From the NCBI GenBank assembly GCA_029959085.1, contig JARWIR010000061.1:2170001-2234000 (forward strand): a DNA stretch of 64,000 nt. Direction: 5' to 3'. Below are positions 11,502-56,434 of this stretch, piece after piece. The number at the start of each line of letters is the position of its first letter. Within the stretch, counting starts at the first letter, position 1. This DNA comes from Nemophila menziesii. Taxonomy: Eukaryota > Streptophyta > Magnoliopsida > Boraginales > Hydrophyllaceae. Under the pieces are notes generated by a model. That model was not told where the DNA came from, ran no database searches, and worked only from the letters and a program-made list of their open reading frames with translations. The translations under genes and the position numbers were made by a program.

Positions 11502-11637
11502 GCGGTACACTGGACCTAGGGTACGGTACACCGCAGCTATGCGGACTGGGGGCACGGTGCATGGCTAGCCCGTCAGAAGCAAGGAAATCAAAACGTTGAG
11601 AAGTGCGGCACACCGCACAAGACCCGCGGTGCACCGC
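11502..11637 (+). promoter_or_regulatory. Paired GCGGT/ACCGC palindromes in C1 LTR
   Basis: Twelve-base palindromic units lie at 11502 (imperfect) and 11523, spaced 21 bp, and at 11605 (GCGGCACACCGC) and 11626 (GCGGTGCACCGC, perfect), again spaced 21 bp. A degenerate copy lies at 11553. They occupy the U3 region about 40-180 bp before the Myb motifs and the likely TATA position. The same pair occurs in the second LTR (55622 and 55643) and once upstream of the C1 accessory ORF (49899 with a half site at 49920). Confidence 0.75.
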
Positions 11638-11678
11638 AGGTAAGGTTTTTCTGCAACCAAATGAGGACAAAAGGCATA

Positions 11679-11731
11679 TAACCGTTGGGTGTTAAATGTA
11701 TCTGTTAGACACATGGCTTTTGACCGTTAGA
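11679..11731 (-). promoter_or_regulatory. Two MSA-type Myb motifs in C1 LTR
   Basis: Read on the minus strand, 11679-11689 is CCCAACGGTTA and 11721-11731 is TCTAACGGTCA. Both match the published M-phase-specific activator consensus YCYAACGGYYA, bound by three-repeat Myb proteins. In the second LTR the first motif is mutated and the second is kept (55738-55748). Confidence 0.55.
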
Positions 11732-12116
11732 GGCTTATTTCAGCTACAAATAAGCTCTCATTGAAGGCACAACTTACACCTTCTATCTACCAATCTTAAG
11801 AGCTATTATTGTTATCATTCAAGAAGGTTTTCAAAGAGCATTCAAGTCATATCTACACATTCAAGCTTTATAGTTATCTCTACTCATATAGGAGTCTAGC
11901 TACAAACATTGTATCACCACTTAAACACTCTTTCTTCCTCTTAATTCTTACCTTGTATTAGATTAAGAGAGTATTGTGAGTATAGGTAGTATACTTGGTT
12001 CCTTGTGTTTGTGATAACACAAGTGGTTTGCTTCAAGGTTGTGAAGTGGTTGTAAACGGTTTGTAATCTCACCCAGGTTAAAGAGATACGAAGATTATAT
12101 TGAGAATCTTGCAAAT

Positions 12117-12192
12117 CCTAAGGGGGACTCCTTAGGTAGTGGATGTAGGGAAACCGAACCACTATATATCGTGTGTATCTTTCTATCCCTAC
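12117..12192 (+). other. Conserved hairpin plus pseudoknot-like block in C1 LTR
   Basis: CCTAAG (12117-12122) can pair with CTTAGG (12131-12136). Directly after it, TAGTGG (12137-12142) can pair with CCACTA (12159-12164), while GTAGGG (12145-12150) can pair with CCCTAC (12187-12192). The last two stems interleave as in an H-type pseudoknot. The block is nearly identical in C2 (28962-29037) although the two LTRs are otherwise clearly diverged. Confidence 0.5.
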
Positions 12193-12408
12193 ACTATTTA
12201 TTTTCCGCACTCTATATGCTTGATAAAATGCTTACATGAATAGTTAAATTATATTGTCTCATAGTATTATCTAGTTTATAACTATTTAGTTGACTAAAGC
12301 AATAGGATTTAAATTAGCCTTTAATTTTTTTTACTTGAATTAAAATTAGCTGATTAATTTCCATAGTCCTATTCAACCCCCCTTCTAGGACGCATACAGA
12401 ATATCAAT

Positions 12409-14187: not shown

Positions 14188-15750
14188 TGGTGGTCCTTTG
14201 TGTGTTCTAAAATAAATGCAATAAATAATCGAACCATAACCGCAAGTGTACGGTTGTCCCAAGTAGTATAAATGATAAAACAGATTCGTTCCAAGGACGG
14301 GACGGTTGACTACAATGCTTATCTATTAATGATTGATTGCACTTATGAAAGCAATTAAAGATAATATGTTTGTTTGGTTTTGTATTAATACTGAGTAAAT
14401 GAAAGACAATTATTAAAATGCAAATAAAAGCTAAGACGCAAATAAAATGATGTAAAACGCAGTATGAGAAGTAGCACTTGAGAACGCAAGGATCCTCCCA
14501 ATCCTATTTCCTAACTTATGTTGTTTAAGAGCTACATTGGTCAATTACAATGGTCGGGATTCTAAATTCCTTATACCCCCGTCAGGGTGGACTATAAGGC
14601 GATTCTAGAGTGTCACTAGTCCCGTCAGGGTAAATATGATCCACTTTTGGATGTTTAAGTTTTATTACCTCATTGACCCTAGAATTAGCTAAGTTCGTCA
14701 GAATCAATAGCTTCTATCCTAGATTGAATAAATGGTTCTGTATCTAAACCCTCCGTCAGGATGATCCAATCGCCACTAATTGGAATAGCCTAAATACTAA
14801 CACCTGTTCCTAGTTCATGACGCTAAAAACAGTAAATATTCTCAATTTATCGGAAAGAGTAAAAGCCCCAATCTAATTTAATTTAACAGAAACCCAAATT
14901 CAATATTCGTAATTCAATAAGATTGGGATTCACCCATTAATTGTTCTCAAGCACTATTAAATGTTTAGCTCATATTGAAAAGAAAAACTAAATTAAATGT
15001 AAAGGAATTCATATTTGATTACAAAATTAAAGATAAAAAGAACCTAATTTCCGGAATAGGAATGACTACGAATGGAGATATAGACCCTCTCCAGTTCTTG
15101 TAGCTTCTTCTTTCTTCCTTCTGTTGCTTCTCTCTGGTGTTTTTAATCTTGAAGAATGTTAATTGTTTTAAAAATAGAAGTCAAAGGCTGGTGTTATATG
15201 TGTAAAAACGGATTAGGGCTTGGACTTAAGAATAAAACACTAATTAAATGTACAAGCCCAAATTCTAAGCCCAAAATCCCGTAACTGCTGATACACCTTC
15301 ACTAAAACGGCTTTTCCCGATTTGTTATGACTCCGATTGACCTCATTCCAGTTGTTAAAGTTCTGTAACTCGATAAGGAATGTTTTCTCTTCAAAGGTCA
15401 GCGGCTAAATCATCGCGTAAGCACCTCGAAATCAGCAATCTATGCCCTGGAAAATGGATTTTCAGCTCTAAAAATAATATCTTCGGGATTTATCTTCAAG
15501 TCTTGACTCTATCTCTTGATCTTTGACTTTCTCCTCGGATTCCTCTTTTAGCTAACATCTAAAACCTGTAAACTTTACACTAAAAATACCAATATTACGC
15601 GCAAAAGCTTAATAAATTAAAAATGCTAGAAATAAAAGAGGAAAATCATATTATTGCATATTTAGTCCAAAAGTCTATCAAATTGATTAAATAAACACCA
15701 AAAATGATGTCTCCTAAGGGTCAAAAATAAGAACAATTAGGGAGACATCA
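14188..15750 (-). repeat. Gypsy A 3' LTR
   Basis: It starts TGGTGGTCCTTTG and ends GGGAGACATCA. It carries four CGTCAGG-type motifs between about 14580 and 14762, located downstream of the TATA-like site in the direction of transcription. Confidence 0.95.
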
Positions 15751-15763
15751 AGACCCCCAACTC
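15751..15763 (-). other. Gypsy A polypurine tract
   Basis: On the minus strand GAGTTGGGGGTCT directly precedes the 3' LTR. The identical tract is present in Gypsy B at 37570-37582. Confidence 0.8.
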
Positions 15764-17109
15764 AAACCTTTGTCGTCCCGACAAAGCAAAACAAAACAAA
15801 ACAAGGGGTAGAAGTAAACCCAAGAACAAATAGAAGCTAGCAAATAAACCTAAAGCAATTCTTAAGATAAATCTCATATAGCAAAACTTTAAAGAACTAA
15901 CATATACATACACTAATCATGCAACATCAAATATAAATAATCTCAATCATAAAATTAAAGTCGCAATGCTTGAAGGTTACACTTGTACTCATCTCTGTAT
16001 GATGGCTATAGGGTGGTCATTAATCCTACCTCGCTTTGAACGCTCCACCTAGTATATTCCCTATCAACAGAATTATAAATTCACTATGCACTTAGGAATC
16101 ACGAGGTGTTTATGGTTTTAATAATGGCTTGAGGACGGTATGGATATATATTTGGTAAATTTGAAGTGAGATTTTGGCTCTCTCCTCAGTTACCATCAAC
16201 AATGTCCTCGAGCTTGAGTTTACGCTAAAAAATGTTCTCACTCACCCATTTGACGCGCTAATGTTGCGTCCCCAATGTCAACCCAAATAAAACTAAGATG
16301 ATTTCCAAAAATATTCCACTTTGCCGGTTTATTTTATTCTTTCTTTCTTTTTATTTTCTTTTTTTTTGTACAAGATACCCATGACCATCATTTTGATGTG
16401 AAAGGTCATGTCTCTTATATATATATATATATATTTTTTTTTATTCTCAGCAAAGGGTTACAAATAATAATATCATCTTTTATTTTTGTGCCTCAATACA
16501 AACACATATTATTCCTTCCCAATGTAAATTCCCAAATGTGGACCCTCCACCCCAAACTCAAGCTCGAGACAAGTCTCAGGGTTGTGATTCAAGTGCGGGT
16601 CATTTGGTCATGCCTAATAATCTAAAGGATAATGGGCTTATATCGTGGCTACAAAAGAAAATGGCTTAAGGCTCAAACTTGGGCTAAGACGGATAAAATT
16701 TTAATAAGGGATAGCAAGCTAAAAGGCTTCAAATGGCTAACAAAGAACTGCCCCTATCATTTTCCTAAGTACATAGCTTGTATTTAGTTCATATCTAGGT
16801 GGGTTCTCTACTAATTAGGATTTCACGTTCTACACACCAAACATATTCCTTAAGTACAAGCTTACTTCATTTGCATTGTTCATTAATTTTTCCTATCAAT
16901 TACTTATGTTCGCATGCAATTGTAAGTGCGTTTTATGTTATTACCTAAAGTCCACTATTTACTATCATAGATTCATCAAAAGTATACTTAAAGGGACATT
17001 TAAAATCTTCTATAGTCAAACGCAACTCATTATTTTATTGAAAGCAAATAAAACACATAACACATAAAAACTGGGATGAGGCAACGAACCCCACCCCAAA
17101 CTCAAAAAT
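15764..17109 (-). other. Gypsy A long 3' UTR
   Basis: No ORF. It is collinear with Gypsy B 37583-38958 and, distantly, with G0 1117-2400. One segment contains a TA run (16418-16433). The position corresponding to the palindrome pair of Gypsy B at 38202-38236 instead reads CATGACC, a spacer, then GGTCATG (about 16379-16411). Confidence 0.7.
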
Positions 17110-17129
17110 GAGTCGTGTCCCCACGACTC
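17110..17129 (-). other. 3' UTR hairpin with GGGA loop (A, H2)
   Basis: Read on the minus strand, GAGTCGTGGGGACACGACTC is a perfect 8-bp stem closed by a GGGA (GNRA-type) loop. It is conserved in G0 and B. Confidence 0.65.
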
Positions 17130-17189
17130 GAAAAGACTTAATAAAATAAACTAAACTAACTAAAACGCGAAAGGGATAGAAAACGTATC

Positions 17190-18549
17190 TTAACCAGCGC
17201 GAGGCTGGTTATCGGTGTTGCGTCCATGAACTTTCTCTTGCGTAAGTATACCATAGGTGGCGTGTTGAATTGTGCTCACCCCCATCAACATGTTTCGGAG
17301 AAGTTCTAACTCTTTTGTAACGTTTCCCAAAGACGCAATCATCTTCACTTGGTTCTCTTCTAACACCTTCACTTTCGCTTCCAACTCATTAGTTGTATGC
17401 ATCTTCTTCTTTGGAGGAGCTCTAGGATTTCTTGTTGCTTTTAACACCTCATCATGAATATTCTTGATCAAAGCTAAACCCATACTCTCACCCACTACAA
17501 CACGATCAATCTCTGCGTCTTTACGCGGAACCTTTGCGTCTAAGCACAACGTAGTGATGGTACAAGGAAATTTGAGATTTTGTTGTGAAGTAGGAATTCG
17601 AGCAAATTCCATGATGGTATCATATATCACACGAGCAACATCTATAGGTTTCTCCTCGATAATACATTTAATGAACAAAAGATGCTCCTTCTTCACTTCC
17701 GATATGTGCTTAACTCCGAAGAAGGTAGGGATTATAAAGCGTGACCAAATCTTAGCACATGGTAGCAAATTACTACTATACATCTGTCCAGGATATCTCT
17801 CCCCTTCGGGAATTGGGCGGGCCCCATCAACAAGCACTTTCCCCCAAAGGGATTCATAATCAAACGAAGGTTCTTTTAGAGACTCTTGAAACGGACATAT
17901 TCCGGAAAATTCAGGTAGTTTCAATGATTTACGAATAAGCTCAACGGAGAAAGGAATTACCTTTTTGCGAATAATAACTGCTTCTTTTGAGAAGGCGATT
18001 CCTTCATAAAAATCTCGCACCAAGGTAGGAATATACTCAAGCTTCCTGTCACGCAATTCTTTCCAACCCAATTTATCACAAGTTATACCATAATCTTTAT
18101 AAGCACTAGTCATAATACCCTTAGGAAGATTCATCTCCTCACCAAACTTCAAAAATTGAATTCTATCACGAACCTGAGTATCCCATGGAATGAAGACTCT
18201 TTTAGGCTTTTGAGCCCAAGCTTTCCTACGCGGAGGTTATGTTGTTGCACTGGTTCTTCGGGAACTTCTTGTACAGTTTCTTCCACAATTTCTTCTTCAA
18301 CTTCTTCCTCACTCTCTTCTTCAAATTCGTCCTCACTTTCTTCATCACTTTCATCAATTAACCTACTCTTTTTCGGATTAGCCTTACTTGGATTTTCTTT
18401 CCGTTTCGGAGCAATTGGGTTTTGTACAGTCTTTTTGGATCGCGAATCCGGAATCTCAATTGCTTGGTCTGGGCTAGCTCCAACATTGTTCATGTTTCTT
18501 GGTATGTTTCTTCAATAGTTACACATAGAAGCAGTCCTGTTAGTCATCT
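17190..18549 (-). pseudogene. Gypsy A accessory ORF (env-like position)
   Basis: Homologous to the intact Gypsy B protein at 39041-40360. The ancestral ATG (18547-18549, same context as B) is followed by a stop after 11 codons. A second ATG at 18493 opens a Lys/Arg then Glu-rich N-terminus. A one-base shift at about 18232-18240 breaks the frame, and the core continues at 18152-17190 with the segments KFGEEMNLPKG and SRFIIPTFFGVKH. A coiled coil (LEAKVKVLEENQ) and the conserved end QPRAG follow. I recognise the core as the plant retrotransposon accessory family found at the 3' side of Athila elements; its biochemical role is unknown. It lies between pol and the 3' UTR, where env lies in retroviruses, but no signal peptide or membrane segment is seen. 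Confidence 0.8.
17191..17211 (-). other. Hairpin over accessory ORF stop (A, H1)
   Basis: TAACCAGC-GCGAG-GCTGGTTA is a perfect 8-bp inverted repeat. On the minus strand it covers the PRAG codons and the stop. It is identical in Gypsy B. Confidence 0.6.
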
Positions 18550-18811
18550 CTTTTCACCCCAAACTCAAAACTTCAAATAGAGAGAAAGCTAGAGAAAAGC
18601 TTTGAAATTTGATGTTTTGAGGTTTAAAACTTGAAGAATTAGGTGTTATATGAGATGGGTTAAGGTTATTTGAGAGGAATTGTGAAAGAATTGGGTTTAA
18701 TTTCAAGGTTGGGAAGGGGGAATTAATGAAGAAAAGGTGAATTTTGGTGATGTTTTGGAGAAGCTATGAGTTGATTGTGTGTTTTTGTGATGAAAGAAGG
18801 CTTGATTTGAT

Positions 18812-18820
18812 GATTTTATA
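18812..18820 (-). promoter_or_regulatory. Possible internal TATA box of Gypsy A accessory ORF
   Basis: Minus-strand TATAAAATC, about 120 bp downstream of the palindrome at 18941-18952 and about 265 bp before the ancestral ATG. The sequence between it and the ATG is C/A-rich like a plant 5' leader. A TATATATC lies at the matching place in Gypsy B (40626-40633). Confidence 0.4.
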
Positions 18821-18940
18821 GTTGTTTGTTGATGATTTTCGGAGTAGGTGGAGGCAAGGATTCGGAATATAAGGTTAGCTTGGAGAAAGAGGCAATAAAC
18901 TAGGTTAAGTAAGCTCAAAACCGCCTCTCGCAACAGGTCA

Positions 18941-19337
18941 CCGGCTAGCCGGTCGCGAGGACGGCGGAAAAAATTACTAAATTCGTTTTTTTTATTTTTT
19001 ATTTTTACCTCAGACCCAAGCACCTTGCGTCGTAGCTGACGCAGTGATCAGAAACCTTGAAATCCTTGGCCGGCTAGCCGGCGGATTCGCCGGCATGCCG
19101 GCGGAATGTCGATGGCGCATTTCGAGACGCAGCAACCTTGCGTCGTCGCTGACGCAAGGACCAGAATCTTTTCCTCCAGTTGGCCGGCTAGCCGGTCAGT
19201 TGACCGGCATGCCGGCGGATTCTCGCTGGCGCGAATTGTGACGCAGCAACGCTGCATCATCGCTGACGCAGTGGTCAGAGAGTTGGGGTCCTTCAGCTCG
19301 TTTGGCCGGTATGCCGGCCAGCCCGCCGGCTAGCCGG
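18941..19337 (-). repeat. Gypsy A palindrome array (CCGGC/GCCGG)
   Basis: CCGGCTAGCCGG occurs at 18941, 19070, 19184 and 19326. CCGGCATGCCGG occurs at 19090 and 19204. A variant, CCGGTATGCCGG, occurs at 19305. The pairs are spaced 20, 20 and 21 bp. They lie in tandem units of about 114-119 bp that also contain GACGCAGCAAC and TGGCGCGAAT framework motifs. The array sits between the end of pol and the accessory ORF. Confidence 0.9.
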
Positions 19338-19571
19338 TCAAACCTGCTGTGGACTCTAAAATTTTTCGTTTTCTCATCGTTTTGACCCCAAACTCATGAC
19401 CATTATACCCCTGAAATCATCAAAAACAAACACCCTTCCTCATTTCTTAAAAATAAACACTAAAATTACGAAAATCAAACTATTCTAATTTGCAAAAATT
19501 TAAAAACTCTATTAATATACAAAGAATTGGCTTTTGTTTAACGTCGTTAAGTTCGACGGGTTACCTCACGC

Positions 19572-22500
19572 TTAAGGAGCCTCCATGAGGTACATGACCT
19601 CTCCGGGATGTGGATCTTCCGAGCGATTGGTATCTTCACCTCCATGGTATATCTTTAATCTATGACCGTTCACCATGAAGGTACGGTTCTCTAGCGGATG
19701 TTCTATTTCTATAGCCCCATGAGGTGTAACTTTGGTCACAATGTATGGACCTGACCACTTAGATCTTAACTTACCCGGATAATTGCTGAACTTTGAATTA
19801 TACTTCAATACTCTTTGCCCCACTTCAAAGTTCTTTGTACGAATCCGATTGTCATGCCATTTCTTCGTGTTTTCATTGTAAAGTTTGGCATTTTCATAAG
19901 CTTGCAATCGGAATTCGTCAAGTTCATTAAGCTTCATCATACGATTCTTTCCGGCTAAGATAGGATCTAAGTTCAACTGCGCAATCGCCCAATAGGCACC
20001 CATTTCAAGCTCTAAAGGTAAGTGACAAGCCTTACCATACACCATACGATAAGGAGATGCACCAACTGGAGTTTTGAACGCAGTACGATAGGCCCACAAC
20101 GCATCATCTAATTTCATTGACCAATCTTTTCTTGTAGGACCAACGGTTTTCTCTAGGATAGACTTGACTTCACGATTCGATACTTCAGCTTGACCATTGG
20201 ATTGTGGATGGTATGCAGTCGATACACGGTGTCTTACTCCATACTTCTCTAGAACAGTCTTCAGATATTTATTAACGAAATGAGATCCTCCATCGCTAAT
20301 AATCACTCTAGGTGTGCCATGTCTAGTGAAAATATGTGATTTCAAGAACTTGATCACCACTCGTGAATCATTGGTAGGTAAAGCCACCGCTTCTACCCAC
20401 TTTGACACATAATCAACATCTAACAAGATGTAAAGGTTACCATTTGAAGGAACGAAAGGACCCATAAAGTCTATACCCCAAACATCAAATATTTCAACTT
20501 CTAACACATTATTACGTGGCATCTCATCCCTCTTGGATATGTTTCCGGTAAACTGGCATCTCGTGCATTTCTTAACATATTCATGACAATCTTTCACAAG
20601 AGAAGGCCAGTAAAAACCTGATTGAAATACCTTCGCGGCAGTCCTATCTCCTTTGAAATGTCCTCCATATAATGAATCATGACATCCAGCTATAATGGCT
20701 TCAGTTTCTTCCCTTGCTACACATCTTCGTATCATTTGGTCAGCACACACTTTGTAGAGGAAAGGATCCTCCCAAAAGAACTGTCTAGCACGGTGAGCTA
20801 ACCTTTTTCTTTCTTGATAAGTAGAACCTTCAGGAAAAACACCACTCACCACTAAATTCGCAATATCTGCATACCACGGAGCTTCATAATCTCTAACAAT
20901 GAACAAACTCTCATCAGGAAACTCTTCTCTAACTGCTTCAGTGCCACTATTCATCTCAGAACCCTCTAAACGCGATAGATGATCTGCAACCTGATTCTCA
21001 CAACCCTTTCTATCTTTGATCTCTAAATCGAACTCTTGAAGTAATAAAACCCATCTGATTAACCTTGGTTTCGCATCTTTCTTTTTCGTAAGATATCTGA
21101 TCGCGGAATGATCTGTATAAACAATAACTTTCGCTCCAAGAAGATAAGAGCGAAATTTATCAAAGGAATATACAACTGCTAGTAACTCCTTTTCTGTAAC
21201 TGTGTAATTAATCTGAGCGCCACTAAAAGTTTTACTAGCATAGTAAATCGAATGAAAAACCTTCTCTTTTCTCTGTCCCAATACAGCTCCCATACACAAA
21301 TCACTCGCATCACACATAACTTCAAACGGTAAATTCCAATCTGGAGGTAATACTATAGGAGCAGAAATAAGCTTTTCTTTGATTGCTTTGAAGGCCGCTA
21401 AACAAGCTTCATCAAAAAGGAATTTGGAGTCCTTTTCAAGTAAGTTGCATAACGGTTTAGCAATCTTAGAGAAGTCTTTGATAAATCGCCTATAAAAGCC
21501 AGCATGGCCAAGAAAACTTCTTACCCCTTTAACAGAAACAGGAGGGGGAAGAGTTTTAATTACCTCTATCTTTGCTCTATCAACCTCTAATCCAACACTC
21601 GAAACTTTGTGACCCAGAACAACACCTTCTCGAACCATGAAATGACACTTCTCCCAGTTTAAAACCAAATCTGTTTCTTTGCATCTGATTAACACTTTCT
21701 CCAAATTATCTAAACATTTATCAAAATCGTCACCAAATATAAAGAAATCATCCATAAACACTTCAAGAAATTTATCAATCATATCCCAGAAGATGGCCAT
21801 CATGCATCTTTGAAAAGTAGCGGGAGCGTTACACAACCCAAATGGCATTCTGCGATATGCAAAAGTACCAAAGGGACATGTAAATGTTGTTTTATGTTGA
21901 TCTTCCGGAGCCACGTAAATTTGATTATACCCAGAATAACCATCCAAGAAGCAATAGTACTCTTTTCCGGCTAATTTGTCTAACATTTGATCAATGAAAG
22001 GCAAAGGAAAATGATCTTTTCTGGTGGCCTTGTTCAGCTTTCTGTAATCCATGCAAACTCTCCATCCAACTACCGTTCTTGAAGGAATCGCTTCATTTTT
22101 ATCATTAAGAACTGTTGTCATTCCTCCTTTCTTCGGTACACACTGAACCGGACTCACCCATTCACTACTCGAGATGGGTTAAATGATCCCCGCATCTAAA
22201 AGCTTGATCACCTCTTTCTTCACTACATCTTTCATAACGGCCATTAATCTTCTTTGACCTTCAACTGAGCGTGCGTTATTATCTTCAAGTATAATTTTGT
22301 GTTGACAATAGGATGGACTAATGCCTTTGATGTCAGCAATTGTCCAACCTATTGCTTCTTAGTTGGCTCTTAACACACGCAACAGTTTATCTTCTTGAGG
22401 ACCTGTTAAATTAGCTGAAACAATAACAGGTAGAGTTTCATTAGTACCTAAATACGCATACCTCAAGTGTGCTGGTAACGGTTTTTCTTCAAATTCCGGA

Positions 22501-25212: not shown

Positions 25213-25323
25213 ACACCAAACCTAAAAACCTGAGAAAGATAAACAAACAAAAAGCGTAAAACTGATAAAATAAAGTAAATGCAACTATCACTAAAGGATA
25301 AACACCGTGGTCACACGCTACCG

Positions 25324-25341
25324 TCCCCGGCAGCGGCGCCA
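25324..25341 (-). other. Gypsy A primer binding site (tRNA-Asp)
   Basis: Minus-strand TGGCGCCGCTGCCGGGGA, six bases from the 5' LTR, is complementary to the 3' end of plant tRNA-Asp with one mismatch. This is the PBS type known for Athila elements. Confidence 0.9.
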
Positions 25342-44500: not shown

Positions 44501-47156
44501 TCACAGGTTCATAGGCAAGACGCCTATACTTCGGATTTTCAGAATTTAGAGCGGCCACTGTTTCTGTAAGCTCCTCCATCATCTCAGGTGAATCTAATGT
44601 TAAAGCAGCCTGCAAGATATCATCAAAATTTAAACAATTAAATACCTCTTGTGATGCTTGCTCTACTACATCCATTCTGAAGCAATCTTCCTGAGAATCT
44701 GGGAATTTCATAGCTCGAAATACATTGAATTTCACTTCCTCATCTTGTATCCTCATCGTTAATTCGCCATTCTCTACATCGATCAATGTCCTCCCTGTAG
44801 CTAGGAAGGGTCTACCCAAAATAATGGGGACATTTCTATCTGCATTGTATTCAAGAATTACGAAATCAATAGGAAATATAAGTGTACCTGCCTTAACAAG
44901 GACATCCTCAATACGACCTTCAGGATGAGCAAGAGACCTGTCCGCCATTTGCAAGACCATAGAGGTAGGTCTTGCATTTCCAATTTTAAGCTTATCAAAG
45001 ACTGACTTGGGCATCAAGTTGATGCTTGCCCCCAAATCACATAGTGCCTTTCCTTTCCATTCTTCTCCAATCGATATGGGAATCGTGAAACTCCCCGGAT
45101 CAACTAACTTCGGAGGTAATTTACTCTGACAAATCGCACTACACTCTTCAGGAAGGCCAATCATCTCATTATCACAATAAGGCCTTTTGTTAGTGAGGGC
45201 CCTCTTCAAAAACTTCGTATACTTAGGAATGTCTCGAATCGCCTCAAGTAACGGAATATTAATACTCAAACCCCTCACTCTATTAAAGAACTTCTGAAAA
45301 TCAACCATATCACCCTTTTTCTGAACTCGCGATGGAAACGGTGGTGGAGGGCGATTGCTTACAATTTCATCTCTCTTTTTCGGAATTTCTCTTGGTCTTT
45401 CTATCTCTTCAACCTCACTATCTTTCTCATTCTCTTTCTCTTTCTCACCCACTTCCTTTTCTTTTCTTGGAACTTCTTTCTCTTTCATAACGGGAAAAGG
45501 AGGTGGAGGAAGGTTCTTACCACTTCTTAATGTAACAGCCTTGCAATCTTCATGTTGTGTTGGATTTTCCGTATCGCTAGGAAGTTGCCCTTGTGGACGC
45601 TGATTTAGCTGTTTATTAATTTGACTTAGCTGATTCTGGAAAATCTTCATATTCGCTTCAGCTGCGTTCTGACGTTCCAAAGCTTGTGTTTGAAGAGCAA
45701 TCAAATTTTCAACGGTTTTCTGAAGGGTAATTACTCCTTCTTGTGGATGGGCAGGTAGAGCTTTCTGGTTTAAATTCTCATCGTAGGTATTCTGAGGAGC
45801 TTGTCTTTGCACATAATTGTTTTGATTCTGTCCTCCTTGATGATTGTTATGTGGTCTTGGATTATAGTTGTTGCCTTGAGGACGCGGCTGATACGCGTAA
45901 GTAGGATTGGCTGCCCCATTAGGATTTGAGTATTGAAACCCAGGATGGTTTCTGTTAGGCTGATATCCATTACCACTTGAATTGAAATTACCTCTATTGG
46001 ACATAAAATTCACTGATTCTTGGTTATTCGGACAACTTTCCTCATCATGATCATCTACCTTACAAATCGAACACATATACACCTCTTGTGCAGCATGCAC
46101 AGCTACCTTCTTACCCGAAAATCCTTCTTTTACAGCTAAAGTAAGCTGCTTCAATTGTTGCTCTATGGTATTCTGGATTTTATTCTCAAACGTAGCAAAT
46201 TTCTCTTCCATGTCAACATTATTTACTACCTTGACTGGTGTTCTTACTGAGCTCCACCCAACTTCATTCTTGACTGTTCTCTCTAAAATAATTTTGGCAT
46301 GAGCGGGTTGAACTTGAAGAAAACCTGCACCACATAGCGTATCCAATTTCTCTCTTGAAATTCCATCAAGGCCTCTATAAAAGATCTTTAACTGTTGTTG
46401 TTCTGAAAAGCCATGATTGGGAACCTTACGCAAACACATCTGAAATCTTGTCCAACTCTTACCCACAGTTTCCTCATATTCTTGACGGAAGTGCGTCAAT
46501 TCTAACTCAGCATCTAATCTCATGTTACTTGGGTAATACCTGTCGAAGAAAGCAATTTCTAATTGGTCCCAATTGGTAATCTTCGTAGGATCTTGCGTAT
46601 CGTGCCATTCACTTGCTCCATCAATGACAAAGAATTTAAAAGCAGCAAAATACATCTGTTCTCTTGAAACCCCTTGTGTGATATAAGAATCACATATCTG
46701 CTTAAATTTCTGTACCGCTCTAAGAGGATCTTCCGATGGTCTTCCGCGAAAATTTCCAAAGTTTTGGAACTGAGCTAGCATACCCGAATCTGGACGGAAT
46801 CTCGGAACATCAATATCTGGAGCACCTACTCCTATAGCTGGAGCGCGGAATGGAACTTCTGGAGGACCATTAGTAAACCATGGATCTTGATTCATCACGA
46901 TTTGAACTTGAGGATTAGGATTTAGTGGTTGAACTTGAGGAATAACGCCTGGGGCTAAAGGTTGGCCATTTGCATCTAACTGGCCTTGTCCGTTCTGTTG
47001 ACCTTGAAGATTGATATTCTCCATTCTGTTACTTAATTCTTCTACTTCTAAAGCTTCTCGTTCTCTTCTTCTTCTGTTTGCAAGTCTGATCAACGATTCT
47101 GGATTACTAAGGATCGGAGGTGTTGGCTCTAGATCCTTGAATAGCCTTCTTCGCAT
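41523..47156 (-). CDS. Gypsy B gag-pol polyprotein
   Basis: One unbroken ORF of 1877 residues on the minus strand. Gag occupies about 1-480 with a Ty3-type capsid region ([11 protein letters not shown]) and a CCHC knuckle ([14 protein letters not shown]) at about 360-375. A Pro/Glu/Lys-rich linker follows, then the aspartic protease ([11 protein letters not shown], about 705). RT has FMDDF at about 1151 and RNase H has [11 protein letters not shown] at about 1300. The integrase HHCC zinc region is at about 1507-1549, and the DDE core has D near 1577, D near 1636 and E near 1672. There is no chromodomain, consistent with Athila. Gag and pol are fused without a frameshift, so any excess of Gag must come from processing or a separate RNA. 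All catalytic residues I can check are present. Confidence 0.97.
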
Positions 47157-47267
47157 ACACCAAACCTAAAAACCTGAAAAAGCTAACAAACAAAAAGCGT
47201 AAAACTGATAAAATAAAATAAATGCACTTATCACTAAAGGATAAACACCGTGGTCACACGCTACCGT

Positions 47268-47285
47268 TCCCCGGCAGCGGCGCCA
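47268..47285 (-). other. Gypsy B primer binding site (tRNA-Asp)
   Basis: Minus-strand TGGCGCCGCTGCCGGGGA, six bases from the 5' LTR, as in Gypsy A. Confidence 0.92.
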
Positions 47286-47682
47286 AAAACTTGGTGGTCC
47301 TTTGTGTGTTCTAAAAATAAATGCAAGTGTAAATCGAACCACAACCGCAAGTGTACGGTTGTCCCAAGTAGTATGTATGATAATACAGATTCGTTCCAAG
47401 GACGGATGGTTGATCACAATGTTTAGCAAGTAGTGATTGATGCACTTATGAAAATAAAAGATAATAAAATGTTTGTTTAGTTTCGTTGATTAAAGCTAAT
47501 GAAAAAAAGACAAATAATTAAATGCAAGTAGAAGCTAAGACGCAAGTAAAATAAGTGAAAACGCAATATGAGATGTAGCACTTGAGAACGCAAGGATCCT
47601 CCTAATCTTACTTCCTAACTTATGTTGTTTAAGGGCTAAATCGGTCAATTACAATGGTCGGGATTCTAAATTCCTTATACCC

Positions 47683-47863
47683 CCGTCAGGGTGGACTATA
47701 AGGCGATCCTAAAGTGTCACTAGTCTCGTCAGGGTAAATATGATCCACCGTTGGATGCTTAAGTGTTTTACCTCATTGGCCCTAGAATTAACTAAGTTCG
47801 TCAGAATCAATAGCTTTTATCCTAGATTGAATAATTAATTCTATACCTAAACCCTCCGTCAGG
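47683..47863 (-). repeat. Four CCTGACGG-type motifs in the Gypsy B leader
   Basis: On the plus strand CCGTCAGG or one-base variants lie at 47683, 47726, 47797 and 47856. All lie downstream of the TATA box, hence in the transcribed leader. The same set occurs in both LTRs of Gypsy A and in the diverged solo LTR S (about 52770-52955). Confidence 0.7.
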
Positions 47864-48292
47864 ATGATCCACACGCCACTTATGTGGAATAGCTTAGATA
47901 CTAATACCTAATCTTAGTTCGCGACTCTAAAATCAGTAAATAATCACAAATTATCGAAAAGAGTAATAGACCTAATTTAATCTAATTCAATATAAACCCA
48001 AATTCAACATTCGTTAATTCATAAAATTAAGATTCACCCATTGTTTGTTCTCAAGCACTATTAAAAGCTTAGCTCATATTGAAATTAAAAACTAAATTAA
48101 AATAAATGGAATTCATATTGTTTACAAAATAAAAATACGAAAAGAACCTAATTTCCGGAATTGGAATGACTACGAACGGAGCTATAGACCCACTCCAGCT
48201 CTTGTAGCTTCTTCTTTCTTCCTTCTGTTGCTTCTCTCTGGTGTTTAATCTTGTGGAATGTGAATTGTGTGAAAAATAGAAGTCCAGACCTC

Positions 48293-48300
48293 CTTTTATA
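48293..48300 (-). promoter_or_regulatory. Gypsy B LTR TATA box
   Basis: Minus-strand TATAAAAG followed by GAGGTCTGGACTT. The 3' LTR copy has TATATAAG at this place. Confidence 0.6.
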
Positions 48301-48856
48301 AGTGTAAAAACGGATTAGGGCTTGGACCAGAAAATAAAAGACTAATTAAATGTCCAAGCCCAATTTCCAAGCCCAAAATCCCGTAATTGCTGATACACCT
48401 TCACTAAAACGGCTTTTCCCGATGCGTTACAACTCCGATTGACCTCATTCCAGTTGCTAAAGTTCCGTAACTCGATAAGGAATGATTTCTCTTCAAAGGT
48501 CAACAGCTAAATCATCGCTTAAGAACCTCTAAATCAGCAATCTATGGCCTGGAAAATGGATTTTCAGCTCTAAAAATAATATCTTCGGGATTTATCTTCA
48601 AGTCTTGACTCTAATTCACGATCTTTGACTTTCTCCTCGGATTCCTCTCCTAGCTAACATGTAAAACCTGTAAACTTTACACTAAAAATACCAATATTAC
48701 GCGCAAAATTTAATAAATTAAAAATGCTAGAAATAAAAAGGGAATTCCGGATTATTGTAATTTAAGTCCAAAAGTCTATCAAATTAATTAAATAAACACC
48801 AAAAATGATGTCTCCCAAGGGTCGAAAATAAGAACAATTAGGGAGACATCAACTAC

Positions 48857-49690: not shown

Positions 49691-50110
49691 AAACCGTTTC
49701 TTTTTAAATGTTTTTAAAAATAAACTGTTTTCTTTAATTTCGAGTTTTCTACATTGAATTTTTTCAAAACAAAAATTATTTTGTAAGTTTTATAACATTC
49801 CAAATCTATTGGGGAGGTTTCGAATGAGTTTCGGGAGTTTTTAAACAACCCTAAAAATCCATTTTTCTTGACTTAAGCGAGAGCTCGAATTCTACAGTGC
49901 GGTACACCACACATTTGTCGCGGTCTGAATTTAAAACCCGTTTCTTTTCTTTTGTTATTCCATTCTCTTTTAAAACAAACCCTACCCGCCTCTCTCACGC
50001 CTCTCTGCGATTTCCGGCGACCCCACCTCCGCCAAAACACCTTTTCTCCACCAAATCACTCCATTTTCATCTTTAAATCATCTCTCCTTCATTACCCACT
50101 TGATTCCACC
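49691..50110 (+). promoter_or_regulatory. C1 spacer before accessory ORF, with palindrome
   Basis: GCGGTACACCAC (49899-49910, within GTGCGGTACACCACAC) is followed 21 bp later by a half site GCGGT at 49920. This reproduces the LTR pair of C1 (GTGCGGTACACCGCAC, then GCGGTGCACCGC 21 bp on). The sequence from 49930 to the ATG is C/T-rich like a plant leader. Confidence 0.65.
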
Positions 50111-51259
50111 ATGACTAGACCCAAAAGAACAGCTGCTGCTCCAAGGAAAACCGCCGCCGCTCCAAGGAAAACCGCCGCCGCCGGAGCCTCCTCCAGCCGC
50201 CGCCGACCACCTTCTCCGGAGAGCTTTCCATCACCTCCTCCAGCACTTCGTCCTTTCGATGTTCATCCAGGTAGAATCATCGATCTTTTGGCTTTTCCTC
50301 TTGGTGATGATTCTCTCTATGCCTTGTTTTGTGTTCAAAGATGTGATAGAATATTTCATTATTCTGGAAAAAATCTTGCTTATGGATTAGTTGAAGAGTT
50401 TTACACTAATTTTGAATATAATTGTGGTAATAACTCTATTCGTTCGGTTGTTTCGGGTGTTAATTTTCGGTTAAAAATGGATGAGTTATGTAATAGATAT
50501 GATGTTCCAAATCATGGTTTTGGTGGGTTTTGGTCGAATGCTTGGGATGGTTCGGGTTTGGATATTATTGAGCAAAATCAAGTAAATGAGTTTGTTGAGA
50601 GAAGAATGGTTGTTAATGATGGTACGTGGCTTATTCGGAATTTCGATACGGAATTTATAGTGGCCCACAAGTTTCTTATCTCGGCCATTATTCCCAAGGA
50701 CAAGCATGATGCTAAGTTAATTCCTTACAAGACGTATCTACTATTTCTCATTTTCACTCGGCAACCAATCAATCTTATTTCTATCATGTTCAAGTGGATG
50801 AATCATTCTAGGATGGCCCGAGGTAAAGTTCCATATGGTATTTTTCTTTCCCGTTGTTTTGAAATTAAGAATATTTCGTTTGGGGGTACAAATGTAAAAC
50901 CTATGGATAGATCGTGGAGTTTTGATTATAATACTATTCGGAGAATGAAATATGTGATCTACAACAATGTTTATGTGGCAAGCTCTCTTGTTAGTCGGAT
51001 TGCGGATGATAATCTTCGTAATCTCATCCTATCCACCAAAGATAAAACTACCGGGCCGGCTTTTGATTCTCTTGAGCTTTTGGAAAACCCGATTCCCCAA
51101 CATGCCGCTCCTAATCCTAATACCGCTTCATCCTCTAATCCTCCTCCCGGTGATAGTTCCTCCTCTAACTCCCGTCTCGATCAATTCATGGCTTTTGTGA
51201 CTCAAAAGCTTGAAACCATGGAGAAGAAGCTCGATGCTATTAATGATAAGATTTATTGA
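50111..51259 (+). CDS. C1 accessory protein
   Basis: 382 residues from ATG 50111 (CCACCATGACT context). The open frame begins upstream at 49952, but the homologous position in C2 and the leader composition favour 50111. The N-terminus is Lys/Arg/Ala/Pro-rich with repeated APRKTAA. The conserved core (about 50-310) has LVEEFYTNFEYN, IVAHKFLISAIIP and KVPYGIFLSRCF. A Ser/Pro linker and a C-terminal coiled coil (MAFVTQKLETMEKKLDAIND) follow. It is homologous to the C2 protein and has the same overall layout as the Gypsy A/B proteins. No membrane segment or signal peptide. The frame is fully open although C1 is the oldest LTR element here. Just after the stop the sequence could still encode an RS-like tail (GRRSCSRSHSP), suggesting that the stop is a recent shortening relative to C2. 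Confidence 0.8.
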   Translation: MTRPKRTAAAPRKTAAAPRKTAAAGASSSRRRPPSPESFPSPPPALRPFDVHPGRIIDLLAFPLGDDSLYALFCVQRCDRIFHYSGKNLAYGLVEEFYTNFEYNCGNNSIRSVVSGVNFRLKMDELCNRYDVPNHGFGGFWSNAWDGSGLDIIEQNQVNEFVERRMVVNDGTWLIRNFDTEFIVAHKFLISAIIPKDKHDAKLIPYKTYLLFLIFTRQPINLISIMFKWMNHSRMARGKVPYGIFLSRCFEIKNISFGGTNVKPMDRSWSFDYNTIRRMKYVIYNNVYVASSLVSRIADDNLRNLILSTKDKTTGPAFDSLELLENPIPQHAAPNPNTASSSNPPPGDSSSSNSRLDQFMAFVTQKLETMEKKLDAINDKIY

Positions 51260-52387: not shown

Positions 52388-54659
52388 TGGTGGGTCCTTG
52401 TGTGTTATAAAATTAATGCGATAAATAAAAGGAACCACAATACCGCAAGTGTACGGTTGTCCAAGTAATACTCCGATAAGTCGGATTCGTTCTCAGGGAT
52501 TGGACTGGTATAACCCAAGTGTTCAATAGATTAATAGTAGTAATTGCAAATACAGAAAAGTAAAAGATAAAATATATTTGTTTGGTTTTTTATATTAATC
52601 CTAAGAATGCAAGAAAATAAATTACTGAAAATAAATACTAAAGGACTAAGATGCAGATATGAACTATACTTGAGTCTCGCTAGGGAATCACCTAAACTTA
52701 CCTAATTAATGCTTTCTTTAAGGGCAGAACTGATATTTCTATATTAGTCGGGACTCTTTAATCTCCTAGCCCCCGTCAGGGTAGACCTAGGAGTTATTCT
52801 CAGGTGTTACAAACCCCGTCAGGGCGATTATAATCCACCTTTGAATGAATACTATTTTACCCAATTGGCTATAAGGTTAACTAAGTCCGTCAGGATCAAT
52901 AATTTCTACCTTACGTTTATTATCTAGTTCAGTAATTAAACCCCCCGTCAAGGCCACTTCCCCACCAAAGTGAATAGCTTAATTACTATGACCTATCTCC
53001 GATTAGCTAATTCATTGATAGTGAAATTAATATAAAATAAGAAACAATATGAAATACCTAATTCAAATTAAACTAGAAACTAATCCCAAATTGAAATACA
53101 TGAATTAAACAAATTAGGGTTCATCCCATTACGATTCTCAAGTAATTAAAGATTTAGCTCATAATTGAAATAAAAACAATAAAGAAATTAATAATATACA
53201 TGTCCTAATAACAAAAATAAAATAAGAACCTAGATAGAGGAATTGGCTTGAACTGTTGTTGGAGGAAAAAGATTCTCCAGCTTCTGCTCTTTCTTCCGCC
53301 TCTTGACGCTCTCTCTAAAGATGTATATATTGAATGAATTATGAGAGGTCTTTGACTCTCTCTATAAGTTTAACTAAGTCCATCAGGATCAATAATTTCT
53401 ACCTTGCGTTTATTATCTAGTTCAGTAATTAAACCCCCCGTCAAGATGATCACTTCCCCACCAAAGTGAATAGCCTAATTACTCAAACCTATGTCTAATT
53501 GGCCAAATTAAATATAGTGAAATTAACTTACGATAACAAACAATACTAAATTACTCAATTCGAATTAAATTATAAAAAATCCCAAATCAAAAAACATCAA
53601 TTAAATAAATTAAGGTTCAACCTATATAACGAATCTCAAGCACTTAAGAAGTTTAGCTCATAACGGAAAATAAAACTAAAACAAATAAATTAAAATACAT
53701 AATGTTTTACAGAAAGAAATAAATAAAACCTAATGAAGAGGTTGGGTTTGGCTTGAATTGGAGATATAGACAGTCTCCAGCTCTAACTTTCTTCCTTCCT
53801 GCTTGCTCTGACTTGAATCCTTAAGCCTCTTTGATAATTCTTTGAAGTGTGTGAAAGTAGGAGGTTAAGGGGTGTATTTATAGGTGTTGGAAGACCCTAG
53901 GTCGAATTTGCTTGGAGTGGAAGACAAGTTAAAGACTCTCAAATTCGTAGCCCTAAATTCTAGAAAAGGTAAGATTTGCTGCTGATTTGATTTGGTCATA
54001 TCTTTTTCAATACTTATCCGTTTGAGAAGTTCCAATATATGAAACTGCTTGTCTTGGAAAGAGCTTTCTATTGGTGCAGACCACTCGTCCAGAATCCATG
54101 CCAATCTTTAATTATGATTTAATCTCTAAAACGTGGCTGAATTTCAGATTTCAAAAGGCAGCTTTATCTTTTCCTCCTTTGAATAAATTTTTCCTAAATC
54201 TTTTTATTTCCATGTAAATCTTCTTTCCTTTCATCTTTATCTTGACTTGGTCTCTAAGTAATTACCATTTATCTTTTAAAGCTTCACATTAAATAAATAA
54301 TTAAACCGCATATGCTTATAAAGAATAAATCAAGAAATCAAGAAAACGAAATAGGAAACTGTACTCTAAAAATAGAAACTCGACTAAAAATCATTTCCTA
54401 ACACTCTAAAATACACTAAGACTTTATTCTTACTTCTCCACCTTGGATTGGTCTTTCATGAAATTCAAGAACCTATTTAACTTTGCATCAAAAATAGTCA
54501 AATTTACGCACAAAAGCTCAGAAAATGCAAATAGTTAAATTCCAAGGGGGAAAAGTGTAATATGGTAAATTATGCATGAAAGTCTAGCTAATAAGTCAAT
54601 AATTCACCTAAAATGATGTCTCCAGAGGGCTAATAATTAGAACAAATAGGGAGACATCA
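52388..54659 (-). repeat. Solo LTR S of an Athila-related family, with internal duplication
   Basis: It starts TGGTGGGTCCTTGTG and ends GGGAGACATCA like the LTRs of A and B, but is 2272 bp long and clearly diverged. It contains two versions of one segment (about 52883-53362 and 53367-53870), both with the GTCCRTCAGGATCAAT and CCCCCCGTCAA words. The versions differ at many positions. It was inserted only in the right copy of the duplicated LINE-1 segment. Confidence 0.9.
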
Positions 54660-55216
54660 CCTGGCCTATATTTTCATACTTGAATTTAATCCAACTAGCT
54701 TTTGTTTCTGATTCATAGTCATTGATACCTGCTATTAGAGGGTTTTGAATGTTTCAATCGACTCTCACTTTGGTAATAGAAGAGTCATCAATTTCTAGCG
54801 ATTCTGGTAGTTCAGTTTGGTGTACCTTCCTAAAGTAACTAAGCATTTTCTCAAGACAATTTAATGTTAACAGGTTTGCAGGAATACCAAAGAGTTGGAG
54901 CCACATAGTCGTATTGTTGACCTCTTTATCTGCTCTATTTTCATACTTGTTATTTGCGAGATGTTTTCCTTGTCCTGTCCATGATCTCTGTTCCCAAACC
55001 TTCATTTTATCTCCTTCATTTCCGAACTTGATGACGAAGGTATTGTCACCACACTTTTCTACTTCTACTTAATTTCTTAAGGCCCAGTACTTGTTAGCAA
55101 GGTTTTTGATAAAAATATGGTTGAATTTTTCTTGGTGTAACAACTTAACAATGAGTTTTTGCTCATTTAGTTCTCTGTAGATGGATTTGTTATCTAGATT
55201 TATGACAAGGGGTTTT
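54660..55216 (-). repeat. Second copy of LINE-1 ORF1 region (right half)
   Basis: Collinear with 10641-11196, including DUF4283 (MWLQLFGIPANLL). It ends GTTTT before the C1-type LTR. Confidence 0.92.
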
Positions 55217-56434
55217 TGTTGGCATATAGCCTCCCTTAATAGGTTGTTTTAATGTGACAAATCCTCTTGTGTTTAGTGTGCTAATTAATCTTGTTATATA
55301 CATCCTATCTTGCACTATTGTTCATCAAAAACACTTTACATATCATTCTTATTATATCTCTTTACATATACTTTTATTCATATCTTTATATACATTGAGA
55401 TATAGCCTTTATAATCAACTGCAAAGTTTATTAGAATGATGTTATCTACAAATTTCGTGAAGAAGATATACTGACCCGAGCATCATAGCAAAAGTTATAT
55501 CTTTCAAAGATGTTTGGTGCGGTGCACCGGACCTAGGGTACGGTACACCTCATCTATTCGGACCAGGGGCACGGTGCATGGCTAGCCCGTCAAAAGCAAG
55601 GAAATCAAAACGTTGAGAAGTGCGGTACACCGCACAAGACCCGCGGTGCACCGCAGGTAAGGTTTTTCTGCAACCAAATGAGGACAAAAGGCATATAACC
55701 ATTGGGTGTTAAATGTATCCGTTAGACACATGGCTTTTGACCGTTGGATGCTTATTTAAGCTACAAATAAGAGCTCATTGAAGGCACAACTTACACCTTC
55801 TATCTACCAATCTTAAGAGCTATTATTGTTATCATTCAAGAAGGTTTTCAAAGAGCATTCAAGTCATATCTACACATTCAAGCTTTATAGTTATATCTAC
55901 TCATATAGGAGTCTACATACAAACATTGTATCACCACTTAAACACTCTTTCTTCCTCTTAATTCTTACATTGTATTAGATTAAGAGAGTATTGTGAGTAT
56001 AGGTAGTATACTTGGTTCCTTGTGTTTGTGATAACACAAGTGATTTGCTTCAAGGTTGTGAAGTGGTTGTAAAGGGTTTGTAGTCTCACCCGGGTTAAAG
56101 AGATACGAAGATTATATTGAGAATCTTGCAAATCCTAAGGGGGACTCCTTAGGTAGTGGATGTAGGGAAACCGAACCACTATATATCGTGTGTATCTTTC
56201 TATCCCTACACTATTTATTTTCCGCACTCTATATGCTTGATAAAATGCTTACATGAATAGTTAACTTATATTGTCTCTTAGTATTATCTAGTTTATAACT
56301 ATTTAGTTGACTAAAGCAATAGGATTTAAATTAGCCTTTAATTTTATTTACTAGAAATAAAATTAGCCGATTGATTTCCATAGTCCTATTCAACCCCCCC
56401 CCCCCCCCCCTTCTAGGACGCATATAGAATATCA
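55217..56434 (+). repeat. Second C1 LTR, flanked by GTTTT on both sides
   Basis: 1218 bp, partner of 11197-12406. Preceded by LINE-1 DNA plus GTTTT and followed by GTTTT, so by its own borders it is a solo LTR in LINE-1. Palindrome pair at 55622/55643; MSA-type motif at 55738-55748. Confidence 0.93.
56394..56410. repeat. Run of 17 C in the C1 LTR
   Basis: The corresponding place in the 5' LTR (12377-12382) has 6 C. Confidence 0.9.

Follow-up and report, generated by a model that had tools for sequence, protein, structure and literature searches.

Four LTR retrotransposons of two superfamilies, the Copia elements C1 and C2 and the Gypsy elements A and B, carry paired GC-rich boxes in the 64-kb window, which is the whole stretch of DNA analysed here. 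As the best explanation, which we favour tentatively, the boxes may be paired dimer operators at LTR or internal promoters, with a VANC-like PF20167 protein encoded by the elements as their most likely reader. Each box would be a dyad of two CGG-containing half-sites for one dimer, and the abutting pairs would place two dimers side by side. The promoter downstream of the operators would be that of the LTR in C1 and C2, whereas in A and B it would be a candidate internal one ahead of the accessory ORF. By reading them, an accessory ('env-like') protein with PF20167 would switch on or de-silence its own family, as the VANC proteins do for VANDAL transposons.

The boxes were defined by the strict rule.CGGN..N'CCG. 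(CGG-N4-CCG). A comparison with shuffled controls bore out their excess: 31 strict boxes were found in the window, compared to a mean of 0.33 and a maximum of 2 in 30 dinucleotide shuffles, and all 31 are located inside the four elements. Rechecking of the coordinates confirmed GC-rich boxes at every position given in a preliminary description of this DNA, with corrections. The pairs reported for C1, C2, A and B are real; the third pair of A is 19306/19326, not 19305/19326, and the list lacked a solitary box of A (18941) as well as the copies in the 3' LTR of C2 (33720/33743 and 33818/33840). The name 12-bp palindrome suits 11 boxes, whose 12-mers are perfectly palindromic, but many are dyads of 5+5 bp with a non-symmetric centre. 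The definition as perfect 12-bp palindrome was given up, since in many boxes the two central bases are free and the signal is carried by the arms.

Pair spacing tracks the motif type, not one constant phase, with 20 bp in A, 21 bp in C1 and 22-23 bp in B and C2. The constant phasing formerly assumed is too strong a claim, as the range from 20 to 23 bp corresponds to about 100 degrees of helical rotation. Strict helical phasing was unsupported beyond the spacing of 20-23 bp. Abutting footprints of 18-20 bp would equally yield this spacing. Compared to random placement, pairs at 20-23 bp gave P=0.042 for C1 (2 pairs), P=0.045 for C2 (2 pairs), P=0.0054 for A (3 pairs) and P=0.00011 for B (5 pairs), values that overstate independence because the arrays of A and B hold tandem units (114 and 124 bp). 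The CpG observed/expected ratio of the box regions was 1.25 (A), 1.34 (B), 1.12 (C2) and 0.90 (C1), against 0.75, 0.76, 0.67 and 0.51, respectively, in the matching internal region or LTR, a comparison in which the boxes contain CG by definition.

C2 is a Sirevirus-type Copia element on the forward strand with LTRs at 27990..29334 and 33385-34723 (self-BLAST, 97.5%). It has the PBS TGGTATCAGAGC (29336) and the PPT AGGGGGAG-AT-TG (33377); copies of the PPT occur at 33135, 33240, 33297 and 33377, and only the last is followed by AT-TG. The 5' LTR contains the pairs 28325/28348 (23 bp) and 28423/28445 (22 bp) with the half-site CCGGG/CCCGG (28325..28456). They start 335 bp into the LTR, inside the 200-400 bp described for Sirevirus LTR boxes in the accessible part of PMC2829016, and stop 52 bp upstream of the TATA box (28508). 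Both pairs recur in the 3' LTR (33720..33851), with one change in the last box. A linker pair (23 bp; 30873..30907) in opposite orientation to the LTR pairs lies upstream of the accessory ORF piece (31274..32398; PF20167, E=2.4e-7, under the gathering score). A gag was detected at 29352-30443 (PF14223, 28.2 bits, cut-off 27), whereas the three ORFs with a length of at least 120 aa gave no pol match.

For C1, also on the forward strand, the 5' LTR spans 9981..12382, its 5' edge being approximate (self-BLAST pieces to 51673-56399, 96.5-98.5%). The gag (PF14223) starts at 12530 after this LTR, and the domains PF14223, PF00665 and PF07727 are of Copia type. The 5' LTR pairs 11502/11523 and 11605/11626 (11502..11637) have a spacing of 21 bp and the half-site GCGGT/ACCGC; the boxes 11502, 11523 and 11605 are imperfect. 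Among the 3' LTR boxes (55519..55654; 55519 with the decayed 55540, and 55622/55643), the counterparts of 11502 (55519) and 11605 (55622) are better and that of 11523 (55540) is worse. With a start about 1520 bp into the long LTR the boxes fall outside the Sirevirus range. No PPT AGGGGGAG was found ahead of the 3' LTR. The C1 boxes are confined to the LTRs, and no strict boxes were found ahead of the accessory ORF (49877..51259; PF20167, E=9.7e-8, under the Pfam gathering score).

The Gypsy elements A (14188..26910; LTRs 14188-15750 and 25348-26910) and B (36009..48852; LTRs 36009-37570 and 47292-48852, 99.3%) are located on the reverse strand. The domains PF03732, PF00078, PF17917 and PF00665 stand in the Gypsy order RT-RNaseH-integrase, with the accessory ORF downstream of pol. 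These are not Copia-type gag/pol domains, and A and B are therefore not Sireviruses. They appear Athila-like, an assignment drawn from anatomy, PF20167 and the PBS; the PBS is presumably of the tRNA-Asp type. No strict box was found in the LTRs of A and B; the boxes sit ahead of the accessory ORF. The array of A (18941..19337) consists of the solitary box 18941 and the pairs 19070/19090, 19184/19204 and 19306/19326, each at 20 bp. The half-site CCGGC/GCCGG is present in both arms of 6/7 boxes and in only one arm of the seventh (19306); four of the seven are CCGGCTAGCCGG. The array of B (40755..41287) comprises five pairs at 22-23 bp (40755/40777, 40904/40927, 41027/41050, 41151/41174 and 41254/41276) with the half-site CCGGG/CCCGG, and G/C stands at the half-site switch position in all 10 boxes. 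B has a second pair (23 bp; 38202..38236) between the accessory ORF and the 3' LTR. As candidate internal promoters, the TATA-like sequences CTATATAT in B (40623..40634) and CTATAAAA in A (18821) follow the last array box at 121 and 120 bp downstream, respectively; both are pattern matches only, of a kind frequent in this AT-rich window. The accessory ORF of B measures 441 aa from stop to stop (39041..40366; PF20167, E=1e-24), that of A is an open piece (17190..18236; PF20167, E=5e-26), whose upstream part is out of this frame and has an early stop.

The arms are conserved while the remainder of the tandem units varies, which agrees with the earlier view of the boxes as sequence-specific dyads. 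In the B units the arms are invariant at 20/20 columns compared to 44/90 outside (P=6e-6), in the A units at 19/20 compared to 30/89 (P=3e-7); the units were chosen by their boxes, a bias favouring the arms. Between the sister elements half-site and spacer differ throughout the array, with CCGGC in A and CCGGG in B. Identity of A and B is 88-97% in gag-pol. Along the profile it amounts to 93-95% up to the pol stop, drops to 43-73% in the array, 68-77% in the leader and 64-82% in the ORF, and returns to 87-95% directly past the accessory ORF stop. The second pair of B (38202/38225), which has no strict box as counterpart in A, falls within another dip (58-77%). This dip also contains an AT repeat in A. 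The extension of the island to the ORF stop is read from the windowed profile, not from the best three-segment fit, in which the high-mismatch segment is limited to the array (A 19382-18929, mismatch 0.63) and the ORF falls in the 0.23 segment. In one pair of elements (A and B), the half-sites switch in concert and alongside a diverging accessory ORF, as is described for VANDAL/VANC (PMC10398659); VANDAL transposons were the analogy drawn in the preliminary description. The divergence of the adjacent accessory gene with the boxes suggests a dedicated DNA-binding protein as reader. With dN/dS of 0.24 (348 codons) this ORF is under constraint and therefore likely encodes a working protein. The dS is raised to 0.82 in the accessory ORF compared to 0.23 in pol, so that the island resembles an exchanged cassette and is no proof of coevolution.

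PF20167 was matched by all four accessory ORFs, weakly by those of C1 and C2. An envelope function was rejected, because simple hydropathy (maximum KD19 1.09-1.45) showed no transmembrane-like stretch in the four pieces, of which two (A and C2) are incomplete. A heptad-like stretch occurs near the C end in 4/4 pieces (a count given without a control for comparison), in B as a heptad-like helix, and short basic motifs were found in the proteins of B and A. The ORF of A gave a sub-threshold match to bZIP_1 (E 0.0056). With AlphaFold (4 sequences) a mean pLDDT of 33 was obtained for the accessory protein and a DNA-binding fold was not evident. A protein search with the ORF of B yielded 5070 candidates, none at E 0.001. 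The best match of a PDB sequence search (E 0.01) was judged chance. In viral contigs searched with part of the B pol, 4 stretches matched, none from a relative.

B and C2 share a nearly identical module of ~45 bp, spacer included. Of the 17 non-box positions 13.0 match, compared to 5.0 +/- 1.2 at random places (0/20000), and their accessory proteins show no pairwise match (17% in alignment; best BLASTP E 4.9). This sharing weakens the simple assumption that each protein reads its own site, and is more simply explained by a host factor than by an element protein. A host transcription factor binding palindromic CGG/GCGG sites as dimer, e.g. of the LOB-domain (LBD/AS2) type, is a possible though less probable reader; the elements would have converged on enhancer modules or swapped them. 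LOB domains bind GCGGCG, and their dimerisation serves the discrimination of palindromic DNA, according to the available text of PMC10118128. The position of the C2 LTR boxes ahead of the TATA box and the agreement of the CCGGCTAGCCGG boxes of A (4/7 in the array) with the Citrus Sirevirus consensus AATCCGGCTWRCCGGATT are consistent with such a factor. Comparison of the motifs with a cis-element database gave mainly stress-factor sites, as far as the accessible part of the report goes (Bousios 2010, PMC2829016). A host factor alone, however, leaves unexplained the joint divergence of array and accessory ORF and the difference of the sisters in half-site and spacer through the whole array, and the literature searched yielded no plant factor whose sites are exactly these. 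Two further points count against the PF20167 protein as reader: C1 has an accessory ORF with no boxes ahead of it, and env-less Sireviruses bear the motifs in their LTRs (PMC2829016, in part).

The array of B folds far better than its shuffles (z -7.8, 100 shuffles). Fold-back of box with box in RNA or single-stranded DNA, as a signal of the genomic RNA or a source of double-stranded RNA/siRNA, would account for this, and is in our opinion improbable. Complementarity of the outer flanks was 11.5 compared to 9.9 with permuted partners (P=0.012; within elements P=0.025, 14 pairs). With shuffled flanks the mean z was -1.26 over 9 Gypsy pairs, four of which (A1, B1, B2, B5) reached P 0.010-0.035; five (B_post with 0.075, B4, A2, A3, B3) missed P 0.05, and the 5 Copia pairs were without flank effect (mean z +0.52, P 0.33-0.99). 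An excess of small RNA on Sirevirus palindrome clusters also fits (Bousios 2016 as cited in the accessible part of PMC10760457). In contrast, the box centres are non-complementary in 16/17 pairs, as would be expected of single dyads rather than of hairpin arms, and a hairpin needs neither dyad arms nor one arm sequence across all hairpins of an element. The box-to-box hairpin as sole function was rejected due to this centre mismatch; the flank complementarity in some Gypsy pairs keeps the idea alive. Recombination and tandem duplication alone, with the boxes as passengers multiplied in the units of 114 and 124 bp and moved between elements by template switching, are very improbable: the tandem units in A and B and the mosaic nature of the elements, which follows from the variation of the A/B dS by region, can be counted in favour, but the arms are intact while the remainder of the same units diverges, the box regions remain CpG-rich (though CG is in the boxes by definition) and one box class stands at different places in two superfamilies.

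In the preliminary description the arrangement was taken as undescribed for SIRE elements. This is wrong for Copia, as repeated motifs of Sireviruses have been in print since 2010 (PMC2829016). In the accessible part of that paper these motifs have a CGG-CCG core and occur in LTRs and upstream of env. The boxes resemble them in being palindromic with this core, present in many copies per element, CpG-rich and varying in sequence by family. The fit is good for C2 and partial for C1; the layout with boxes in the LTR upstream of the TATA box and copies upstream of the env-like ORF is found in C2 only, and the Citrus consensus fits the CTAG boxes of A. The same text calls the motif Sirevirus-specific, whereas it is found here in two Gypsy elements; the text describes neither the pairing at 20-23 bp nor the cross-superfamily module nor the co-divergence with the ORF. 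For LTRs of maize Copia Sireviruses, palindrome clusters of variable sequence with excess mapping of small RNA have been reported (Bousios 2016 as cited in excerpts of PMC5311732 and PMC10760457). The VANDAL/VANC system is similar in its short motifs, which are specific to a family and lie in tandem repeats of non-coding DNA, and in its sister elements, which are alike overall and differ in accessory protein and target motif (PMC5735166, PMC10398659, each in part). Unlike the boxes, the VANDAL motifs YAGTATTAY and AGTTGTCC/AGTTGTAC given there lack palindromic symmetry, and the accessible part of PMC5735166 uses none of the words palindrome, dimer and spacing. Binding and demethylation were demonstrated in that system, while for the boxes they are predicted. 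C1, C2, A and B are LTR retrotransposons, not MULE-type DNA transposons; therefore they may work like VANDAL/VANC, and are no members of it. A sunflower Athila ORF, grouped with 3' accessory ORFs (Transposase_32/PF20167, predicted nuclear localisation), has its Pfam domain in common with A and B; the accessible part of the report describes no DNA target for it (PMC11728184). The available text of PMC12844716 leaves it to future work to show if Tork and Athila have ORFs of this sort with an effect on methylation.

The pairing at 20-23 bp, the sharing across superfamilies and the boxes in Gypsy elements were not found in the literature searched. As far as these searches show, three observations are new: the presence of this box class in Gypsy elements, where it lies between pol and the PF20167 accessory ORF, the ~45-bp module common to Copia C2 and Gypsy B with its spacer, and the sharp divergence of A and B over array and accessory ORF with a switched half-site. 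Opinions differ on what the 'env-like' ORFs of plant retrotransposons do, and a function of the Sirevirus palindromes is unproven; the window joins both features in both superfamilies, and A and B, as sisters that differ in half-site and in ORF, offer a testable pair. More speculatively, and rather unlikely in our estimation, the 'env-like' PF20167 proteins of Sireviruses and Athila might be one family of sequence-specific regulators with CGG-half-site operators rather than envelopes, and evolve as protein-plus-operator cassettes in two superfamilies; C2, which shows no pol and has taken on the operator type of B, could then exploit the regulator of another element ('operator piracy'). If a host factor reads the boxes, elements without relation to each other would have one entry point in common. 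If the PF20167 proteins read them, self-encoded anti-silencing would extend beyond DNA transposons and include retrotransposons that are abundant in plants.

The window was scanned for CGG-N4-CCG boxes, 12-bp dyads defined strictly by CGG at positions 2-4 together with CCG at positions 9-11, bases 5 and 8 being complementary. The 31 boxes identified all lie within the four retrotransposons C1, C2 (Copia), A and B (Gypsy), which confirms the box observation of the preliminary description; 30 shuffled controls gave a mean of 0.33 and a maximum of 2. The Copia boxes are located in the LTRs of C1 and C2 and in the C2 linker, those of A and B between pol and the accessory PF20167 ORF, with an extra pair after this ORF in B. 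Spacing within pairs is 20 bp in A (3/3 pairs), 21 bp in C1 (3/3 listed pairs) and 22-23 bp in both C2 (5/5, 3' LTR counted) and B (6/6). Half-site type and spacing go together, as B and C2 both combine CCGGG with 22-23 bp. In four arrays, pairs were more frequent than random placement would give (P 0.042, 0.045, 0.0054 and 0.00011), a result to be read with caution as the A and B arrays hold tandem units.

The LTR retrotransposons are nested in one another across the window. C1 (+ strand; 5' LTR about 9981-12382, 3' LTR about 51673-56399; LTR identity 96.5-98.5% by piece) is interrupted by three elements, A (14188-26910, - strand; LTR pair 97.6% identical), C2 (27990-34723, + strand; 97.5%) and B (36009-48852, - strand; 99.3%). 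Sirevirus hallmarks of C2 are four AGGGGGAG tracts, the last one directly followed by the AT-TG of the 3' LTR junction, and a primer site, TGGTATCAGAGC, which we take to be of the iMet type. Its coding content is a gag ORF and a PF20167 ORF; none of the three ORFs that reach 120 aa gave a pol match. C2 thus looks non-autonomous, although its LTRs, PBS and PPTs are of Sirevirus type. An insert within the C1 3' LTR (52386-54658) contains a stretch 73-75% like the A and B LTRs as well as a roughly 370-bp internal repeat (52869-53732); the scan found no strict box in it. The near-dyad CCCCGTCAGGG recurs in the A and B LTRs and within this insert (14577, 25737, 36398, 47681, 52771, 52814). Gypsy fragments in inverse orientation (1074-2186) are 74-84% like the A/B parts downstream of the accessory ORF, and a LINE-type element lies at 57720-62028 (- strand), with RVT_1, zf-RVT and Exo_endo_phos in two of the scanned ORFs.

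The boxes are probably best explained as operators read by a dimeric protein. In tandem units, picked by their boxes (a choice that favours the arms), invariant arm columns amounted to 20/20 versus 44/90 outside in three B units, 19/20 versus 30/89 in A, and 20/20 versus 68/97 in the two closest A units; the two central box bases vary. CpG observed/expected is 1.25 in the A array versus 0.75 in the internal region, and 1.34 versus 0.76 in B. Four of five box differences between LTR pairs are transitions, compatible with decay of methylated cytosine. Concerning promoters, the last C2 LTR box ends 52 bp upstream of CTATAAATA (28508), at whose place C1 has CTACAAATA, and TATA-like sequences of similar context follow the last array box by 121 bp (B) and 120 bp (A), ahead of the accessory ORF. 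For the C2 linker pair, no TATA was found in the stretch leading to the C2 ORF. All these calls are pattern matches only, which are common in the AT-rich window.

As reader of such operators, a protein encoded by the elements would be a tentative first candidate. The PF20167 ORF (in Pfam 'Transposase_32', putative plant transposon protein) is present in all four elements, with E values of 5e-26 (A), 1e-24 (B), 1e-7 (C1) and 2e-7 (C2), the last two below the Pfam gathering score. Hydropathy revealed no transmembrane-like stretch in the four protein pieces. Short basic motifs occur in B and A, with one in C1 and none in the C2 piece; towards the C end each piece has a heptad-like stretch, scored without a control at 9 of 10 positions in B and A and 7 of 10 in C2 and C1. 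Structure prediction gave a pLDDT of 33. A dimeric nuclear regulator is a plausible candidate.

Array and ORF differ jointly between the sister elements A and B, a single case. Gag-pol identity is 88-97% (300-bp windows). In the 3' part, 120-column windows give 93-95% identity as far as the pol stop and 89% immediately past it; the values are then 43-73% in the array, 68-77% in the leader and 64-82% in the PF20167 ORF, and return to 87-95% directly behind the ORF stop. Identity drops once more (58-77%) across B's second box pair; at that place A carries an AT repeat and no strict box. A three-segment fit set its boundaries around the array only (mismatch 0.08, 0.63, 0.23), so it is the identity profile that supports a step at the ORF stop. 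The arrays share position and flanking repeat, and the right box aligns in three pairs. The A half-site is CCGGC on both arms in 6/7 boxes and on one arm in box 19306, while B has G/C at the switched position in 10/10; spacer and flank letters agree at 1.4 of 17 positions. The dN/dS is 0.24 in the ORF versus 0.07-0.13 in gag-pol parts. The raised dS of the ORF (0.82; pol 0.23, gag 0.46) suggests a cassette that was exchanged and had diverged earlier, rather than fast amino-acid change alone; the joint difference holds under either reading. Regional dS (A 19572-25041, B 41523-47165) is 0.46 in gag, 0.32 in the middle and 0.23 in pol, which suggests mosaic ancestry past the island.

A host factor as reader is rather unlikely, but B and C2 carry nearly the same module although their accessory proteins do not match. 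In element sense, this module is CCGGGWWCCCGC-ATTTGG..AAA-CCGGGWACCCGG-TTTGG in the C2 LTR and B, with some changes. Non-box positions agree at a mean of 13.0 of 17 (12 comparisons), versus 5.0 ± 1.2 for randomly chosen C2 positions, of which 0 of 20000 reached this value. Both elements also share the asymmetric base that ends the left box (4/4 C2 LTR copies, 3/6 B pairs). In opposite orientation 8-13 positions agree (mean 10.6), since the dyad continues into the flanks; some of the match therefore reflects box extension, not descent. The C2 linker pair (30873-30907) fits the module too, turned the other way round from the LTR pairs. By BLASTP, the B protein had no match to C1 (E 0.17) or C2 (E 4.9). 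The C1 and C2 proteins are similar to one another (26% over 338, E 1e-31).

Fold-back of the box pairs is unlikely as their main role. The B array gave a folding z of -7.8 and flanks add to the stem in 4/9 Gypsy pairs (A1, B1, B2, B5; P 0.010-0.035), with the B pair after the ORF (38202/38225) borderline (0.075), but no flank effect was seen in A2, A3, B3, B4 or any of five Copia pairs, and the two box centres are complementary in only 1/17 pairs. We read the boxes as dyads first, some of the Gypsy pairs having a fold-back feature in addition. In the B regions 40740-41300 and 38180-38260, as well as at pair A1 and the C2 linker pair, short motifs flank the pairs about 7-15 bp outside the boxes: YACAG stands left of A1, B2, B5 and the B pair after the ORF, and CTGTR right of the C2 linker pair, B2, B3, B5 and again this last B pair. 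That the boxes are mere passengers is very improbable.

The preliminary description knew of no such report for SIRE elements; this does not hold, as the available parts of Bousios 2010 (PMC2829016) already describe Sirevirus CGG-CCG palindromes in LTRs and upstream of env. Bousios 2016 is cited within PMC5311732 and PMC10760457. The Copia half of the observation is thus known. Bousios 2010 termed the palindromes Sirevirus-specific, whereas the same box class also occurs here in the Gypsy elements A and B. As far as the excerpts of these sources extend, a sunflower Athila ORF with PF20167 is described (PMC11728184), DNA binding is predicted for TRP28 ORFs of Retand (PMC11963269), VANC anti-silencing proteins and their targets (PMC5735166, PMC10398659) and LOB-domain binding (PMC10118128) are treated, lineage names are given and the role of such ORFs is termed speculative (PMC6317226), and action of Tork and Athila ORFs on methylation is left as an open question (PMC12844716). 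Within the literature searched, the Gypsy boxes, the B/C2 module and the array-plus-ORF island are new. The argument for a host factor, or for a module passed between the superfamilies, rests mainly on the B/C2 module together with the non-matching accessory proteins.
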